A stretch of 64,000 nt of DNA from Gemmobacter fulvus. Lineage in GTDB: Bacteria > Pseudomonadota > Alphaproteobacteria > Rhodobacterales > Rhodobacteraceae. A program made the position numbers and the translations under genes. The stretch spans positions 186,001 to 250,000 of the forward strand of contig NZ_CP076361.1 of the NCBI RefSeq assembly GCF_018798885.1. The letters run 5' to 3'. Shown here one piece after another: positions 1 through 58,254 of this stretch. Numbering within the stretch: the stretch's first letter is position 1; the number at the start of each line of letters is the position of its first letter. The notes below the pieces were generated by a model. It saw nothing but the letters and a program-made list of their open reading frames with translations. It was not told the origin of the DNA and did not search any database.

Positions 1-888
1 CTGTTCATCAATGATGTCGATGTGACCAGCGGCGAAAAGCCCCCCATGCAATGCACGGTGCAGATCGCGCCGATGGCCGATGATCCGCATGTGCTGATGC
101 TGCTGATCAGCCCGCGCGAAATCGCGGATCGGCTGGGCCGGGCGGGGGCGGCGAAAACGGCGGCAAAATCGGCCATCGGCATGGCCGAGATGCTGGCGCA
201 TGAGATCAAGAACCCGCTGGCGGGCATTTCCGGCGCGGCGCAGCTGTTGTCGATGGGGCTGGGCCCCGAGGACCGCGAGTTGACCGAGCTGATTGTCGAG
301 GAAACCCGGCGCATCGTGAAGCTGCTGGAGCAGGTCGAACAATTCGGCAATCTGCGCCCGCCGGACCGTCGCGCGGTGAATATCCATGACGCGCTTGACC
401 GGGCGCGCAAATCGGCACTGGTCGGTTTTGCCGCGCGCATGAAGATCATCGAGGAATATGATCCCTCGTTGCCGCCGACCTATGCCGACCCCGATCAGCT
501 GATGCAGGTGTTCCTGAACCTGATCAAGAACGCGGCCGAGGCGGCGGGCGGCGAGGGCGGCACCATCCGCCTGCGCACCCGCTATGACCTGTCGCTGCGG
601 CTGCGCCGCAAGGACGGGCCGGGCAAGGCGCTGCCCTTGCAGGTGGAGATCATCGACAACGGTCCCGGCCTGCCGCCCGGCATCGCGGGCGAAATCTTCG
701 AGCCCTTCGTTTCGGGCAAGGAAAACGGCACGGGGCTGGGCCTCGCGCTGGTAAGCAAGATCATCACGGAACATGACGGATGGATTGCGGTGGATTCGGT
801 TCCGGGTCGCACCGTGTTCCGGGTGTCGTTGTCGGTGGCCCCACGTGAGCCGACGGCACGGGAAATGCACAAGAAGGATGCAGGCTGA
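1..888 (+). CDS. ntrB: Nitrogen regulation sensor histidine kinase NtrB (5' end outside window)
   Basis: This is the C-terminal part of NtrB (GlnL), the soluble kinase that phosphorylates NtrC when nitrogen is short and is switched by PII proteins. The frame is open from base 1, so the start codon and most of the PAS domain lie to the left. The H-box reads [20 protein letters not shown] with the phospho-accepting His. The ATPase N-box follows ([12 protein letters not shown]), then the G1 box DNGPGLPPG and the G2 box [12 protein letters not shown]. The TGA stop shares its last A with the ATG of ntrC, so the two are translationally coupled. The ntrB-ntrC-ntrY-ntrX order is standard in Rhodobacter. 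Identity is very likely. Confidence 0.95.
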
Positions 889-2252
889 TGGATGGCACGG
901 TTCTGGTAGCCGATGATGACCGCACGATCCGCACGGTGCTGACACAGGCGCTGACACGGGCGGGATGCAAGGTTCACGCAACCTCGTCGCTGGTGACGCT
1001 GATGCGCTGGGTCGAAGAGGGCAAGGGCGATCTGGTGATTTCGGATGTGATCATGCCCGATGGTAACGGGCTTGAGGCTTTGCCCAAGATCTCCAACATG
1101 CGGCCCGGCCTGCCGGTGATCGTGATTTCGGCGCAGAACACCATCATGACCGCCATTCAGGCCGCCGAGGCCGAGGCGTTCGACTATCTGCCGAAACCCT
1201 TCGATCTGCCCGATCTGATGAAACGCTCAGCCCGCGCGCTGGACATGAAGCGCCGCGCGCCGAAAGTGGCGGCCACCCCGCGCGAGGCGGGCGACGATCT
1301 GCCGCTGGTGGGGCGCACCCCGGCGATGCAGGCGCTGTACCGGCTGGTGGCGCGGGTGATGAACACCGATCTCGCGGTGCTGATCACCGGCGAGTCGGGC
1401 ACCGGAAAATCGCTGATTGCCCGTGCGATCCATGACTTTTCAGACCGGCGCACCATGCCCTTCGTGGTGGCACAGGCGGCGGATCTGCAAGGGATGGACG
1501 GGCCTTCGGCGCTGCTGGCCAAGGCGCGGGGCGGGTCTTTGGTGTTTGATGAAGTGGCTGATCTGGATGACGAGGCGCAGGCCCGCATCGTGCGTATGCT
1601 GGATATGCTGGGCGACAATGCGCCGCGCATCATGGCCACCAGCCAGAGCGATCTGGCGGCCCGGATGGAGGCGGGGGCTTTCCGGCAGGATCTGTTCTAC
1701 CGTCTGGGCGGCGTCACGCTGCATGTGCCCAGCCTGCGCGAGCGGGTGGATGACATTCCGCTGCTGGCCGAACACTTCCTTGCGCGCGGTGAACGCGATT
1801 TCGGCACGGTGCGCCGCCTGTCGCCCGATGCGCGCGAAATTCTGCGCGCCTATAGCTGGCCGGGCAATGTGCGGCAGCTGGAAAACACGCTCAAGCGCCT
1901 GATGGTCACCTCGTCCGAGCCGGATATCAGCCGCGCCGAGGTTGAGGCCGCCCTGGGCAGCCAGCCCTTGCCAGAGCCGATGAAGGGCGCGGGTGAGGGC
2001 GACAAGCTCTCGGCCTCGGTCGCACGGCATCTGAAGCGGTATTTCGATCTGCATGGCGGCCAATTGCCGCCGCCCGGCGTCTATACCCGCATCCTGCGCG
2101 AGGTGGAGGCACCGCTGATCGAAATCGCGCTGGATGCCACCGGCGGCAATCAGGCCAAATGTGCCGACCTGCTGGGCATCAACCGCAATACCTTGCGCAA
2201 GAAGATCACCGAGCTGGATATTCGCGTGACACGGCGGCGCAAGCTGATGTAA
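888..2252 (+). CDS. ntrC: Nitrogen response regulator NtrC, GAFTGA-less Rhodobacter type
   Basis: Response regulator of the NtrB/NtrC pair, 454 residues. The receiver domain spans about 1-120 with phospho-acceptor Asp53 ([11 protein letters not shown]). An AAA+ domain follows, with Walker A GESGTGKS at 168-175 and Walker [10 protein letters not shown] near 215-223. A Fis-type helix-turn-helix ([20 protein letters not shown]) closes the protein. Between [10 protein letters not shown] and ARGGSLVF only about a dozen residues remain, so the loop that carries GAFTGA in sigma54 activators is missing. In Rhodobacter capsulatus the equivalent NtrC is known to activate the housekeeping RNA polymerase; the same mode is inferred here. 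It starts on the A of the ntrB stop. Confidence 0.95.
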
Positions 2253-2306
2253 AACCGCAACATATAGCGTGTCTTGCGGGCCGAGCCCCGATTCACGCAA
2301 CAAGAT

Positions 2307-4628
2307 ATGGCTGCGGGGGCGGAATCGCCCTCATGTTTTGGGGGCTTTGGTATTTTGCGGGCTGTGGCACATAGCAACACCTGGGTTCTGCGGCTGACAC
2401 GGCTGCGGCGTCAGCGTCGGGTGCAGACCCTGCTGACGCTGAGCCTTGTCGTGCTGGGGCCGGTGCTGGTCGTCTCGACCCTGCTGGCGCTGGGGCCGCT
2501 GGATGGCGGGGCCGGATCGACGCTGCTGCGGATCATCCTTCTGATCGACTTTGTCTATGTCGCGCTGGTGGCCGCCCTTGTGCTGGCCCGCGTGGCACGC
2601 ATGGTGGCCGACCGGCGCAAGCAATCGGCTGGATCGCGGCTGCACATGCGGCTGACCGGGGTTTTTGCGTTGGTGGCGCTGACACCCACGGTGCTGGTGG
2701 CGGTTTTTGCGGTGCTGACGGTGAATATCGGCCTTGAGGGCTGGTTTTCAGACCGGGTGCAGCGCGTGGTCGGGGCCTCGCTGGCCGCTGCCGAGGCCTA
2801 TGAGGGCGAACACCGTGAAGATCTGACCGAAGACGCGCAGGCCTTCGCCGCCTTTCTGAATGTTGCCAAGAAATCGACCTTCTTTCTGGACGACACGCAA
2901 CTGCGCCCGCTGCTGACGCAGGCGCAGGAGCGGATCCAGCGCGGTCTGCGCGAGGCCTTTCTGATCGACGGCGGCGGCGAGTTGCGCACGCGCGGCGACA
3001 AATCCTATCTCTTCGATTTTGAAAAACCGACGCCGGAACAGATCGCGCAGGCGCAATCGGGCGAAACGGTGATCATTCAGGACTGGGCGAATAACGAGTT
3101 TCGCGCGCTGGTGCATCTTGAGGCCTATGCCGACCGCTATCTCTATGTCTCGCGCGCAGTGGACGGATCACTGCTCAGCCTGCTGGATGAAACCAAGGAA
3201 ACCGTGCGCCTTTATCAGCAGGTGGAAACGGCGCGCGGTCGGCTGCTGTTTGAATTCGGGCTGCTGTATCTGGGCTTTGCGCTGATCCTCATTCTGGCGG
3301 CGGTCTGGCTGGGCCTGTGGTTTGCGGAACGGCTGGCGCGCCCGGTCGGGCGGCTGGCCGGTGCGGCGCAGCGCGTCGGCGCGGGTGATATGGATGTGCA
3401 GGTGATCGAGGAAGAGGGCGATGACGAAATCGCCACGCTGGGCCGCGTGTTCAACCAGATGACCCGCCAGTTGAAGGGCCAGCGCGATGCGTTGATGGAG
3501 AACAACCGCCAGACCGAGCGGCGGCGGCGGCTGTTTGATTCCGTGCTGTCCTCGGTGACGGCCGGGGTGATCGGGCTGGATGCCGATGGCGATGTGGATT
3601 TCGTCAACCGTGCGGCAGAACGGCTGCTGGATTTCCACGAGGGCAAGGCGGATGTGGCGCTCGCCGTCGCTGTGCCGGAATTCGGGGCCCTGCTGGAACG
3701 GCTGCGCCAGGGCGGCGGCGGGGCGGTGCAAGAGGAAATCCGGCTGACACGTCAGGGCCGGATGGAAAGCCTGCTGGTGCGCATGTCGGTGCGGCGCAAC
3801 GACAGTGGGCGGCTGGAAGGTTATGTGGTGGCCTTTGACGATGTGACCGATCTGGTATCGGCGCAGCGTATGGCGGCCTGGGGCGATGTGGCCCGGCGCA
3901 TCGCGCATGAGATCAAGAACCCGCTGACCCCGATCCAGCTCTCTGCCGAGCGGATCAAACGCAAGTTCCGCAGCCAGGTGGCCGAACCCGCAGATCTGGA
4001 GCAGTATACTGACGTGATTGTGCGCCAGACCAATGACCTGCGCCGCATCGTCGACGAGTTTTCAAAATTCGCGCGGATGCCGGAACCGGATCGTCGTGAA
4101 ACCGATTTGACCAGACTGCTGCGCGATGCGGTGGTGTTGCAGGATGTGGGGCTTCCCGATGTGCGGCTTCAGGCCGATCTGCCGGATGCGCCCTTGCTGC
4201 TGGATCTGGATGCCACCATGATCGGACAGGCTTTGACCAATCTGATCAAGAATGCGGGTGAAGCGATTGAAGGTCTGATCGAAAAAGGGGCGCCGGCAGG
4301 GTTTCAGCCGGAAATCCGCGTGGCCTGCGTGGCCAGCGAGGCGGATGTGCTGATCACCATTGCCGACAATGGCGTGGGCCTGCCGCCCGACCGGGCGCGG
4401 CTGTTCGAGCCCTATGTCACCACCCGCGAAAAGGGCACCGGCCTTGGCCTGCCCATCGTGAAGAAGATCATCGAGGAACATGGCGGGTCGCTCATCCTGA
4501 CCGACGCGCCGATATTTGACGGCAATGCCCATGCGGGCGCGCTGGCGGAGATCCGTCTGCCACGGGCCCTGCGCCCGACCCGCACACGGGGCAAAGCATC
4601 GGCCATGGACGGCCAGGGGGACGCATGA
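2307..4628 (+). CDS. ntrY: Nitrogen/redox sensor histidine kinase NtrY
   Basis: Membrane histidine kinase, 773 residues from the ATG at 2307. An alternative GTG at 2364 lies closer to the first membrane segment, and neither start has a clear ribosome-binding site. N-terminal hydrophobic segments are followed by a periplasmic region of about 130 residues, another hydrophobic segment (LLYLGFALILILAAVWLGLWF), a HAMP domain (FAERLARPVGRLAGAAQRVG), a PAS-like region and the kinase core. The H-box reads [20 protein letters not shown], with ATPase motifs DNGVGLPPD and GTGLGLPIVKKI. Partner of NtrX; the stop overlaps the ntrX start by ATGA. In related bacteria NtrYX is tied to nitrogen, redox and envelope control. 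Confidence 0.92.
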   Translation: MAAGAESPSCFGGFGILRAVAHSNTWVLRLTRLRRQRRVQTLLTLSLVVLGPVLVVSTLLALGPLDGGAGSTLLRIILLIDFVYVALVAALVLARVARMVADRRKQSAGSRLHMRLTGVFALVALTPTVLVAVFAVLTVNIGLEGWFSDRVQRVVGASLAAAEAYEGEHREDLTEDAQAFAAFLNVAKKSTFFLDDTQLRPLLTQAQERIQRGLREAFLIDGGGELRTRGDKSYLFDFEKPTPEQIAQAQSGETVIIQDWANNEFRALVHLEAYADRYLYVSRAVDGSLLSLLDETKETVRLYQQVETARGRLLFEFGLLYLGFALILILAAVWLGLWFAERLARPVGRLAGAAQRVGAGDMDVQVIEEEGDDEIATLGRVFNQMTRQLKGQRDALMENNRQTERRRRLFDSVLSSVTAGVIGLDADGDVDFVNRAAERLLDFHEGKADVALAVAVPEFGALLERLRQGGGGAVQEEIRLTRQGRMESLLVRMSVRRNDSGRLEGYVVAFDDVTDLVSAQRMAAWGDVARRIAHEIKNPLTPIQLSAERIKRKFRSQVAEPADLEQYTDVIVRQTNDLRRIVDEFSKFARMPEPDRRETDLTRLLRDAVVLQDVGLPDVRLQADLPDAPLLLDLDATMIGQALTNLIKNAGEAIEGLIEKGAPAGFQPEIRVACVASEADVLITIADNGVGLPPDRARLFEPYVTTREKGTGLGLPIVKKIIEEHGGSLILTDAPIFDGNAHAGALAEIRLPRALRPTRTRGKASAMDGQGDA

Positions 4629-6043
4629 GCAATATTCTAATTGTGGACGACGAACGCGATATCCGGGAATTGATCGGGGATATTCTGCGCGACGAAGGGT
4701 TTCAGGTGCGGCTCGCCGCCAATGCGGATGAATGTATCGCCGCGATCAATGCCGAGGCCCCGGCGCTGATGATCCTCGACATCTGGCTGAAAGACAGCCG
4801 GATGGACGGGATCGACATTCTGAAAACCGTCAAACGCGACAACCCGGATGTGCCGGTGGTAATCATTTCCGGCCATGGCAATATCGAGATTGCGGTGGCC
4901 GCGATCAAACAGGGGGCCTATGACTTCATCGAGAAGCCCTTCAACATTGATCAGTTGATGGTCGTTGTCAGCCGCGCGATGGAAACCTCGCGGCTGCGGC
5001 GTGAAAACAGCGAATTGCGCCGCCGCGATGTGACTGCCTCGGAAATGCTGGGCAATTCACCCGCCTTCCGTGCCTTGAAGGCGCAGCTGGAAAAGGTGAC
5101 GAAATCCAATGGTCGCGTGATGCTGACCGGGCCTGCCGGATCGGGCAAGGAAATGGCAGCGCGTTTTATCCATACCAATTCCAACCGGGCCTCGGCACCG
5201 TTCATCTCGGTCTCGTCGGCGGCGATTGAACCCGAACGCATGGAAGAAGTGTTGTTCGGACGTGAAACGCCCGAGCGGGGCGTCGAGCCGGGTCTGCTGG
5301 AACAGGCGCATGGTGGTGTGGTCTATTTCGATGAAGTGGCCGATATGCCGCTGGGCACTCAGTCGAAGATCCTGCGGGTGCTGGTGGATCAGCAATTCAC
5401 CCGCGCAGGCGGGGCCGACAAGGTGCGCGTCGATCTGCGGGTGATCAGCTCGACCACCCGCGATCTGCGCCATGAAATCACCGCAGGCCGGTTTCGGCAG
5501 GAGCTGTATGACCGGCTGAACGTGGTGCCGATCGGCGTGCCGAGCCTTGAGGAACGCCGCGAAGACATCCCTGAACTGACGCGGCATTTCATTGATATGT
5601 TCCACCGCTCGCAAGGTCTGCCGCTGCGCAATCTGACGCCGGATGCCGAAGCGATGCTGCAAACGATGCAATGGCCGGGCAATGTGCGCCAGTTGCGCAA
5701 TGTGATCGAACGGGTGCTGATCCTGGGCGATGGCACCGGCCCGGTCGAGGCCAAAGAACTGCCGGGCCGCGAGACGCCGGGCAGCGACGAGGGCCGCATG
5801 GTGCTGGGTGGTGCCATGGCGACGCTGCCCCTGCGCGAGGCGCGCGAACTGTTCGAAAAGGAATACCTGCTGACGCAGATCAACCGCTTTGGCGGCAATA
5901 TCTCGCGCACCGCGAATTTCGTCGGCATGGAGCGCTCGGCCCTGCACCGCAAACTGAAATCGCTGGGGGTGGTGACCACCGCCAAATCTGGCGGCCGCAT
6001 GGCGCGGCTGGAGGATGATGAGGAGGAGGATGGCGACGAGTGA
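4625..6043 (+). CDS. ntrX: Response regulator NtrX, GAFTGA-less
   Basis: Response regulator of NtrY, 472 residues. The receiver domain has Asp52 in LMILDIWLKD. The AAA+ domain has Walker A GPAGSGKE at 169-176 and Walker B GGVVYFDEV. A C-terminal Fis-type helix-turn-helix (GGNISRTANFVGMERSALHRK) binds DNA, and the tail is acidic. As in the neighbouring NtrC, the sigma54-contact motif is gone: after LFG the sequence reads RETPERGVEPGLLEQAHGG where sigma54 activators have GAFTGA. The protein is therefore unlikely to work through RpoN; repression or activation of sigma70 promoters is the likely mode, by inference. Coupled to ntrY by a 4-base overlap. Confidence 0.94.
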   Translation: MSNILIVDDERDIRELIGDILRDEGFQVRLAANADECIAAINAEAPALMILDIWLKDSRMDGIDILKTVKRDNPDVPVVIISGHGNIEIAVAAIKQGAYDFIEKPFNIDQLMVVVSRAMETSRLRRENSELRRRDVTASEMLGNSPAFRALKAQLEKVTKSNGRVMLTGPAGSGKEMAARFIHTNSNRASAPFISVSSAAIEPERMEEVLFGRETPERGVEPGLLEQAHGGVVYFDEVADMPLGTQSKILRVLVDQQFTRAGGADKVRVDLRVISSTTRDLRHEITAGRFRQELYDRLNVVPIGVPSLEERREDIPELTRHFIDMFHRSQGLPLRNLTPDAEAMLQTMQWPGNVRQLRNVIERVLILGDGTGPVEAKELPGRETPGSDEGRMVLGGAMATLPLREARELFEKEYLLTQINRFGGNISRTANFVGMERSALHRKLKSLGVVTTAKSGGRMARLEDDEEEDGDE

Positions 6044-58033: not shown

Positions 58034-58254
58034 GCCCGATGCCGGGCCGTCCCGGCCCCCGGAGGGGCAGCCCGGTAGGAAATCCGCAGTGCAGGATGTA
58101 TGTTTTTGCGCGGGCCCCAGCCCGCGGACCAGAATCGCGGCAGAAACGGGGTGCAACAAACTTGTGTCGCTCTCTGGCTGCTGAATGTCGAAAACCGACA
58201 CCGCCGCGCGCAGGGCCACGCATAGAACGGATTCAAGAACGAGGAAGGAATCAC
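58034..58254 (+). promoter_or_regulatory. GC-rich structured leader before the one-carbon cluster
   Basis: Between divergent ppx and the scaffold-protein gene. Hairpins by eye: GCCGGG-CCGT-CCCGGC, CGCGGGC-CCCA-GCCCGCG (58109-58126), and TGTCG-AAAAC-CGACA (58186-58200). The regulated genes use methyl-THF and a corrinoid, so a metabolite-sensing leader is possible, but no cobalamin, SAM or SAH riboswitch core could be recognised. Confidence 0.3.

Follow-up and report, generated by a model that had tools for sequence, protein, structure and literature searches.

The window, by which we mean the whole stretch of 64,000 nt of Gemmobacter fulvus DNA that was analysed, shows the gene order ntrB-ntrC-ntrY-ntrX, followed by the potassium transport genes trkA and trkH. 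On the plus strand we identified the kinase part of ntrB (22..888), ntrC (888..2252), the ORF of the sensor kinase NtrY with its NtrY_N domain (2274..4628, in-frame starts at 2274, 2307, 2355 and 2364) and ntrX (4625..6043); the order from ntrB to trkA recurs in Rhodobacterales loci of sufficient length, e.g. L227-L231. According to the ORF, a domain search and the NCBIfam family NF051870 (NtrX), ntrX codes for a response regulator of 472 aa composed of a receiver (REC) domain, an AAA+ domain and a Fis-type helix-turn-helix (HTH). The match to NF051870 reaches 759 bits at a cut-off of 600 and places residues 1-449 on profile positions 1-452, and the protein is an ordinary alphaproteobacterial NtrX. 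Its receiver domain (residues 4-114, 4634..4966, plus strand) contains Asp52 and Lys104. The AAA+ domain carries, likewise on the plus strand, the Walker A motif GPAGSGKE (residues 169-176, 5129..5152), the Walker B pair Asp236-Glu237 within FDEVADM (5330..5335) and the arginines R291 and R297 (5495..5515), which we take to be the arginine-finger positions. Residue 197 (5213..5215, plus strand) is a Ser where most NtrX and the GAFTGA-bearing NtrC have an Asn, presumably the Asn of the 'glutamate switch'. The Fis-type HTH (HTH_8, residues 407-445, 5843..5959, plus strand) has the NtrX-type signature GMERSALHRK in its recognition helix.

What this NtrX does not have is the GAFTGA loop, by which regulators of this type engage sigma54. 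Residues 210-231 (5252..5317, plus strand) read LFG-RETPERGVEPG-LLEQAHGG in translation and alignment, where sigma54 activators have LFG-HEKGAFTGA; at the corresponding loop position LFGHEKGAFTGA of the activators is replaced by LFGRETPERGVEPG in the window NtrX, and fewer residues separate LFG from Walker B than in NtrC with GAFTGA. A sequence-only reading of the window had already noted the absence of GAFTGA from NtrX, which was confirmed by translation and by alignment with GAFTGA-bearing NtrC; the region it gave (5258-5314) was the right one, but the 19 residues it quoted occupy nt 5261-5317 and had thus been placed one codon early. It was equally correct about the neighbouring paralogue NtrC, from which the loop is also deleted. 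Its statement that the ATPase motifs are kept holds for Walker A, Walker B, R291 and R297, with Ser197 in place of Asn as the exception; of the features of a sigma54-dependent enhancer-binding protein (bEBP), these are present and the GAFTGA loop is absent. With the loop lost and both the receiver and the HTH intact, the window NtrX has the build of the GAFTGA-less regulators that act at sigma70 promoters.

The same state was found throughout the class. The class search covered 289 genomes, one per species, and gave matches to the NtrX model in 253 of them at E<=1e-100, 200 of these being above the family cut-off. In the class sample, drawn from the best-scoring places listed, GAFTGA was present in 0 of 130 NtrX versus 70 of 76 NtrC in the fetched stretches; the six NtrC without the motif are those of L042 (Rhodobacterales), L046, L074, L100 and L121 and the unreadable ORF of L086, which was counted among the 76 and in the tree rows (L086_C, end branch 7.4) though it contains no readable NtrC. 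Extension of this sample by Rhodobacterales loci and 80 named loci, followed by de-duplication, yielded 251 distinct NtrX, of which 231 are from Alphaproteobacteria (129 + 3 + 19 + 80) and 20 from other classes; regrouped, the same 251 comprise 101 from Rhodobacterales (window included), 130 from other Alphaproteobacteria and 20 in the outgroup. The window's own copy and exact duplicates were left out of the counts. GAFTGA occurs in none of the 231 distinct alphaproteobacterial NtrX, a set that leans towards Rhodobacterales because the 80 named loci are the 80 nearest relatives, placed in this order by their record titles and by grouping with the rest in a single clade (SH-aLRT 99 with 35 representatives). 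To offset the bias for high-scoring sequences divergent NtrX were added, and in the sample widened in this way, which overlaps the 231, the motif was again absent (0 of 209 genomes). The reading at sequence level covered 209 of the 253 NtrX-matching genomes, with 44 left out, among them G226, which was removed because it has no ORF scoring higher as NtrX than as NtrC. The bias from sampling with the NtrX model is expected to be small, since the same model picked up GAFTGA-bearing NtrX-like proteins. From the absence of the motif in all 231 sequences and all 209 genomes we conclude that the loss of the loop in NtrX is class-wide and old; the missing GAFTGA is the usual state of NtrX in Alphaproteobacteria, as already published for relatives. 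The case that the sequence-only reading had named as its refutation, NtrX of the same order with GAFTGA, did not occur (0 of 101 Rhodobacterales NtrX), and an oddity of this strain was rejected on that count.

Of ten regions measured across the 231 sequences, the loop is the most variable by mean entropy (2.33 bits, compared with 1.23 for the whole AAA+ domain and 0.45 for the HTH, the lowest), and its length ranges from 9 to 20 residues in NtrX, versus 14 in 75 of 75 GAFTGA-bearing NtrC. Walker B Asp-Glu is found in 223 of 231 NtrX versus 100 of the 131 GAFTGA-less Rhodobacterales NtrC (changed in 31), and its retention in NtrX suggests a continuing need for nucleotide binding or turnover there. 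Position 197 is an Asn in 120 of the 130 other alphaproteobacterial NtrX and in 54 of the 101 from Rhodobacterales. The near-invariant ATPase residues of the first class sample are those of the best-scoring NtrX only, and the divergent ones revealed broken sets: in the widened sample, which is enriched for divergent NtrX, Walker A, Asp-Glu and both arginines are intact in 163 of 209 genomes and broken in 46, while the strict HTH signature is present in 192. Among the broken-set NtrX that were inspected, several of those missing the signature are near variants and one is cut short. The catalytic set of NtrX is usually kept and has been lost in a good number of lineages, whereas the DNA-binding helix stays. 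In NtrX of Octadecabacter and Pseudooctadecabacter (L290, L295, L305, L311) Walker B reads Asp-Gly for Asp-Glu.

These figures bear on the possibility that NtrX is still an active AAA+ machine, its ATP-driven assembly being reused to remodel a complex without sigma54 or to repress, the latter as the sequence-only reading had suggested. Such a role would agree with the ATPase set, Walker A with Asp-Glu and the two arginines, that most of the 231 NtrX have and that is also kept in 14 of 14 checked Rhodobacterales rows in which no rpoN was found. We nevertheless regard it as rather unlikely, in view of the Ser at position 197 of the window protein, of the broken sets beside a persisting HTH signature, and of Brucella NtrX, which is reported to bind ATP while showing neither ATPase activity nor phosphorylation-driven oligomers. 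Betaproteobacterial NtrX, which according to the available part of PMC13001219 lacks the whole AAA+ domain, speaks against an active machine as well.

Regarding the time of the loss, 20 out-of-class NtrX-like proteins were chosen from the listed matches, all of which lie outside the alphaproteobacterial NtrX clade in the tree; in the fetched DNA 18 of them have ntrY as a neighbour, with trkA adjacent too in 6 of the 18. Two have GAFTGA in the loop (L220, L222) and four GAFPGA (L203, L217-L219), the other 14 being more altered; the GAFTGA of L220 and L222 is either ancestral or regained from GAFPGA. In the tree, a quick, midpoint-rooted one in which 66 of 153 inner branches are open, NtrX forms one clade with the alphaproteobacterial NtrX as a nested clade inside (SH-aLRT 100 and 99). 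Taken together, the outgroup loops and the tree date the loss of the NtrX loop to the last common ancestor of the sampled Alphaproteobacteria or earlier. Among 136 distinct Rhodobacterales NtrC, a set that leaves out ORFs <330 aa and hence the AAA+-less NtrC of G401, 131 are without GAFTGA and five keep it, namely L195 (G425), L196 (G394), L308 (Pontibrevibacter nitratireducens), L314 (Neomegalonema) and L317 (Rubrimonas cliftonensis). The NtrX of these five genomes (L241, L240, L308, L314 and L317, respectively) are early-branching in Rhodobacterales, and the motif is absent from all of them. To judge from these sequences, the loop loss in NtrC is independent of that in NtrX and a later event inside Rhodobacterales.

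NtrX and sigma54 also differ in their distribution. An NtrX match above the family cut-off was obtained in 196 of 196 Rhodobacterales genomes and rpoN (PF04552, E<=1e-5) in 44; in the remaining 152 rpoN was not found at this threshold, a figure to be read with the reservation that drafts may miss genes, the sampled Rhodobacterales being listed as 99 to 100% complete in the rows shown. In the class as a whole rpoN was not found at E<=1e-10 in 43 of the 253 NtrX-matching genomes. Two of these 43, G122 and G135, have weak NtrX matches with E above 1e-120, yet in both the score as NtrX far exceeds that as NtrC, and the helix is of the NtrX type. NtrX is therefore kept where no sigma54 was found. 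The ATPase set of NtrX is intact in 138 of 166 genomes with rpoN versus 25 of 43 without (Fisher p 0.0009). The idea that rpoN loss drives ATPase decay in NtrX was nevertheless dropped: within bands of equal divergence the effect is gone (p 0.24, 0.76, 0.58 and 1), so that divergence explains the difference.

The window genome itself has one rpoN, located on contig C3 and adjoining another AAA+ regulator: on L354 (7267-10448, minus strand) it lies beside a 734-aa frame for an AAA+ regulator without GAFTGA. Seven NtrC-type AAA+ regulators were read in this genome (NtrC, NtrX and five on L354-L358), and GAFTGA was found only in that of L355, a GAF-domain protein, while L356 has GAFPGA and the other five have neither. 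A move away from sigma54, the phrase of the sequence-only reading, also fits the window genome at large. The L356 regulator (3966-5327, minus strand, C3 near 217,600) has the receiver-AAA+-HTH architecture, its GAFPGA being as in the four outgroup NtrX, and the L357 regulator (3408-4844, minus strand, C1 near 737,800) has the same architecture without GAFTGA and a Walker B segment changed to LEDIE. Loose matches to -24/-12 promoters number 43 in the window versus 42.77 expected, with none in 2200-2460, a count that concerns targets in the window only.

It had been proposed from the sequence that the ntr system made a lineage-wide move away from sigma54, which in its full form would mean that NtrC and NtrX lost the loop together because sigma54 was lost. 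Both regulators are indeed without the loop in the window, rpoN was not found in the majority of the Rhodobacterales genomes, and the RpoN matches with the first and second best scores in the order come from G394 and G425, early-branching genomes whose NtrC has GAFTGA. For NtrC in Rhodobacterales a shift away from sigma54 stands and is already published, as far as the available text of PMC10274813 goes. It does not extend to NtrX, whose loss is class-wide and separate: the motif is missing from every alphaproteobacterial NtrX sampled versus 70 of 76 class-sample NtrC that carry it, and early-branching Rhodobacterales NtrC with GAFTGA occur in genomes whose own NtrX is without. Simultaneous loss in the two regulators was rejected on the latter observation, and we consider one joint shift highly improbable. 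That NtrX is a decaying, functionless pseudo-regulator, as the drift of the loop and of the switch residue might suggest, has next to nothing to recommend it given the full-length open frame, the above-cut-off match in every Rhodobacterales genome, Asp52 and Lys104 identical in 231 of 231 NtrX, and an HTH that is the least variable of the ten regions measured.

In NtrC further stages of AAA+ decay were observed. The NtrC of L182-L189, L197 and L233 have Walker B changed to IENPAGF, IEDPAGF or LEDPAGW, their Walker A being mostly preserved (its Lys is Arg in L233), and this group is probably without ATP hydrolysis. In G401 (L238, 5089-5778, minus strand) NtrC is reduced to 230 aa with receiver and HTH only and no AAA+ domain; within this one frame the matches to residues 3-135 and 372-454 of the window NtrC lie side by side. 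A dihydrouridine synthase gene lies directly upstream of it, and ntrB was not found in the fetched L238 stretch. We give about even chances to the reading that the AAA+ domains of NtrX and NtrC were dismantled independently and in the same order after the contact with sigma54 was lost, beginning with the loop, continuing with the switch Asn and Walker B and ending with the whole domain, with the receiver and DNA-binding domains surviving. Snapshots of a path that betaproteobacterial NtrX has finished would then be seen in the window NtrX and, within Rhodobacterales, in NtrC that is intact, that has its loop deleted, that has lost Walker B or, in G401, that consists of REC and HTH alone. Such a stepwise loss in both regulators would amount to a natural deletion series for the role of an AAA+ domain once the target of the motor is gone.

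Between ntrC and ntrY, 4 nt 3' of the ntrC stop, lies the dyad GCAACA-N6-GTGTC (2257..2273, no strand assigned). The pattern GC[ACT]ACA-N2-8-GTG[GTA]C was found behind the ntrC stop in 102 of 155 Rhodobacterales stretches, in 100 of them at the same 4-nt distance from it; a few of the 155 (L200, L202) follow an NtrX ORF instead and were scored as misses. Shuffles gave 0.12 expected, and among other Alphaproteobacteria the pattern was seen in 3 of 104. The shuffle figure overstates the case, since the pattern came from the very loci in which it was counted and these are related in sequence, and the fixed place of the dyad amid variable surroundings is the stronger point. The commonest form has a 5-nt spacer (72 copies) and corresponds to GCA-N9-TG (GCC-N9-TG in 20 of the 72); it overlaps the published NtrX pattern GCAN9TGC given in the available part of PMC7240162, where NtrX of R. 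sphaeroides was also found by ChIP-seq upstream of ntrYX, the same place as the dyad. In the window copy the spacer is 6 nt long, which gives GCAN10TG, one base more than GCAN9TG. The published NtrX motifs as written are only weakly enriched behind ntrC, with GCAN9TGC in 11 of 134 stretches versus 5.1 in shuffles and CAAN2-5TTG in 17 of 134 versus 9.2. The dyad is more probably a DNA site than a terminator, since an RNA hairpin would be broken by the A that 52 of the 72 copies have at the third base; two terminator-like hairpins are located further downstream, at 2315-2345, and a consensus scan of 2150 to 2450 found no sigma70 promoter. The 6-nt spacer, the weak enrichment of the published motifs and the two hairpins count against an operator. 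We regard the dyad upstream of ntrY as a candidate operator, the putative binder being NtrX or NtrC. A narrower form of the dyad matches once more at window position 58153, with the probable start of a small ORF (MPEVTIVYW...) ~100 nt downstream; this form has 2 matches in the window versus 0.77 in simulations.

In our view NtrX is very probably a phosphorylation-gated DNA-binding regulator at non-sigma54 promoters, with the AAA+ domain as a nucleotide-binding scaffold, the loop having been lost at or before the base of the Alphaproteobacteria sampled and NtrC having lost its own loop independently and later. NtrY would, as expected from the family, phosphorylate NtrX at Asp52, upon which the Fis-type HTH would bind operators, perhaps including the conserved dyad upstream of ntrY. 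Bound NtrX could then activate or block transcription by RNA polymerase without sigma54, and whether activation or occlusion results would be set by the position of the site, as reported from S. meliloti and R. sphaeroides. The AAA+ domain, deprived of the loop that engages sigma54, may persist as a scaffold for nucleotide binding and packing. Counting against this overall reading are the ATPase residues retained by most NtrX, the rpoN of the window genome, the negative sigma70 scan of 2150 to 2450 and the weak enrichment of the published motifs behind ntrC. NtrX is described both as a repressor and as an activator in the available parts of PMC7240162 and PMC9223101, and in the latter NtrX of S. 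meliloti binds the promoters of ctrA, gcrA, dnaA and ftsZ1, with genes down where the site overlaps the start site. A Caulobacter study from 2025, in the portion available (PMC12421884), proposes that DNA-binding mutants of a GAFTGA-less NtrC promote sigma54-dependent transcription, and the missing motif therefore does not strictly rule out every link to sigma54.

Annotations continue to tie NtrX to sigma54, and NtrX of Paracoccus denitrificans, from the same order, is labelled sigma54-specific in the accessible text of PMC9409073 and sigma54-dependent in that of PMC5424462. We suggest that the sigma54 label on NtrX annotations should go, since GAFTGA occurs in none of the alphaproteobacterial NtrX sampled and NtrX is present in genomes in which rpoN was not found. 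The separate timing of the losses in NtrX and NtrC, a stepwise AAA+ erosion including a REC-HTH NtrC, and an order-wide conserved dyad between ntrC and ntrY were not met in general searches of open-access literature for NtrX and NtrC, which is no proof of absence.

Among the closest known systems are PDB entries 5m7n, 5m7o and 5m7p, which we take to be the structure of full-length NtrX from Brucella abortus (J Mol Biol 2017, 429:1192-1212). Entry 5m7n matches residues 2-449 of the window NtrX (phmmer 7.3e-154) and its loop LFGTEMDGGERKVG is likewise without GAFTGA, but the loop sequences differ and it has an Asn where the window NtrX has Ser197. The paper on Brucella NtrX reportedly notes the missing GAFTGA, and the protein is said to be a regulator at non-sigma54 promoters that uses its AAA+ domain as a nucleotide-binding scaffold. 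For Caulobacter NtrX the available text of PMC10274813 states both the absence of GAFTGA and sigma54-independent regulation; compared by this published description, it agrees with the window in the lost loop and in having ntrYX in the ntrBC locus. In the same text NtrC of Rhodobacter capsulatus and other Rhodobacterales acts with sigma70. This regulator is of the NtrC family, GAFTGA-less and from the same order as the window NtrX, and differs from it as a paralogue with a larger loop deletion and a separate, later loss. The betaproteobacterial NtrX / PlrR, finally, belongs to an NtrYX-type pair and is found beside trkA in Bordetella, but according to the part of PMC13001219 available it is without the AAA+ domain that the window NtrX has kept.
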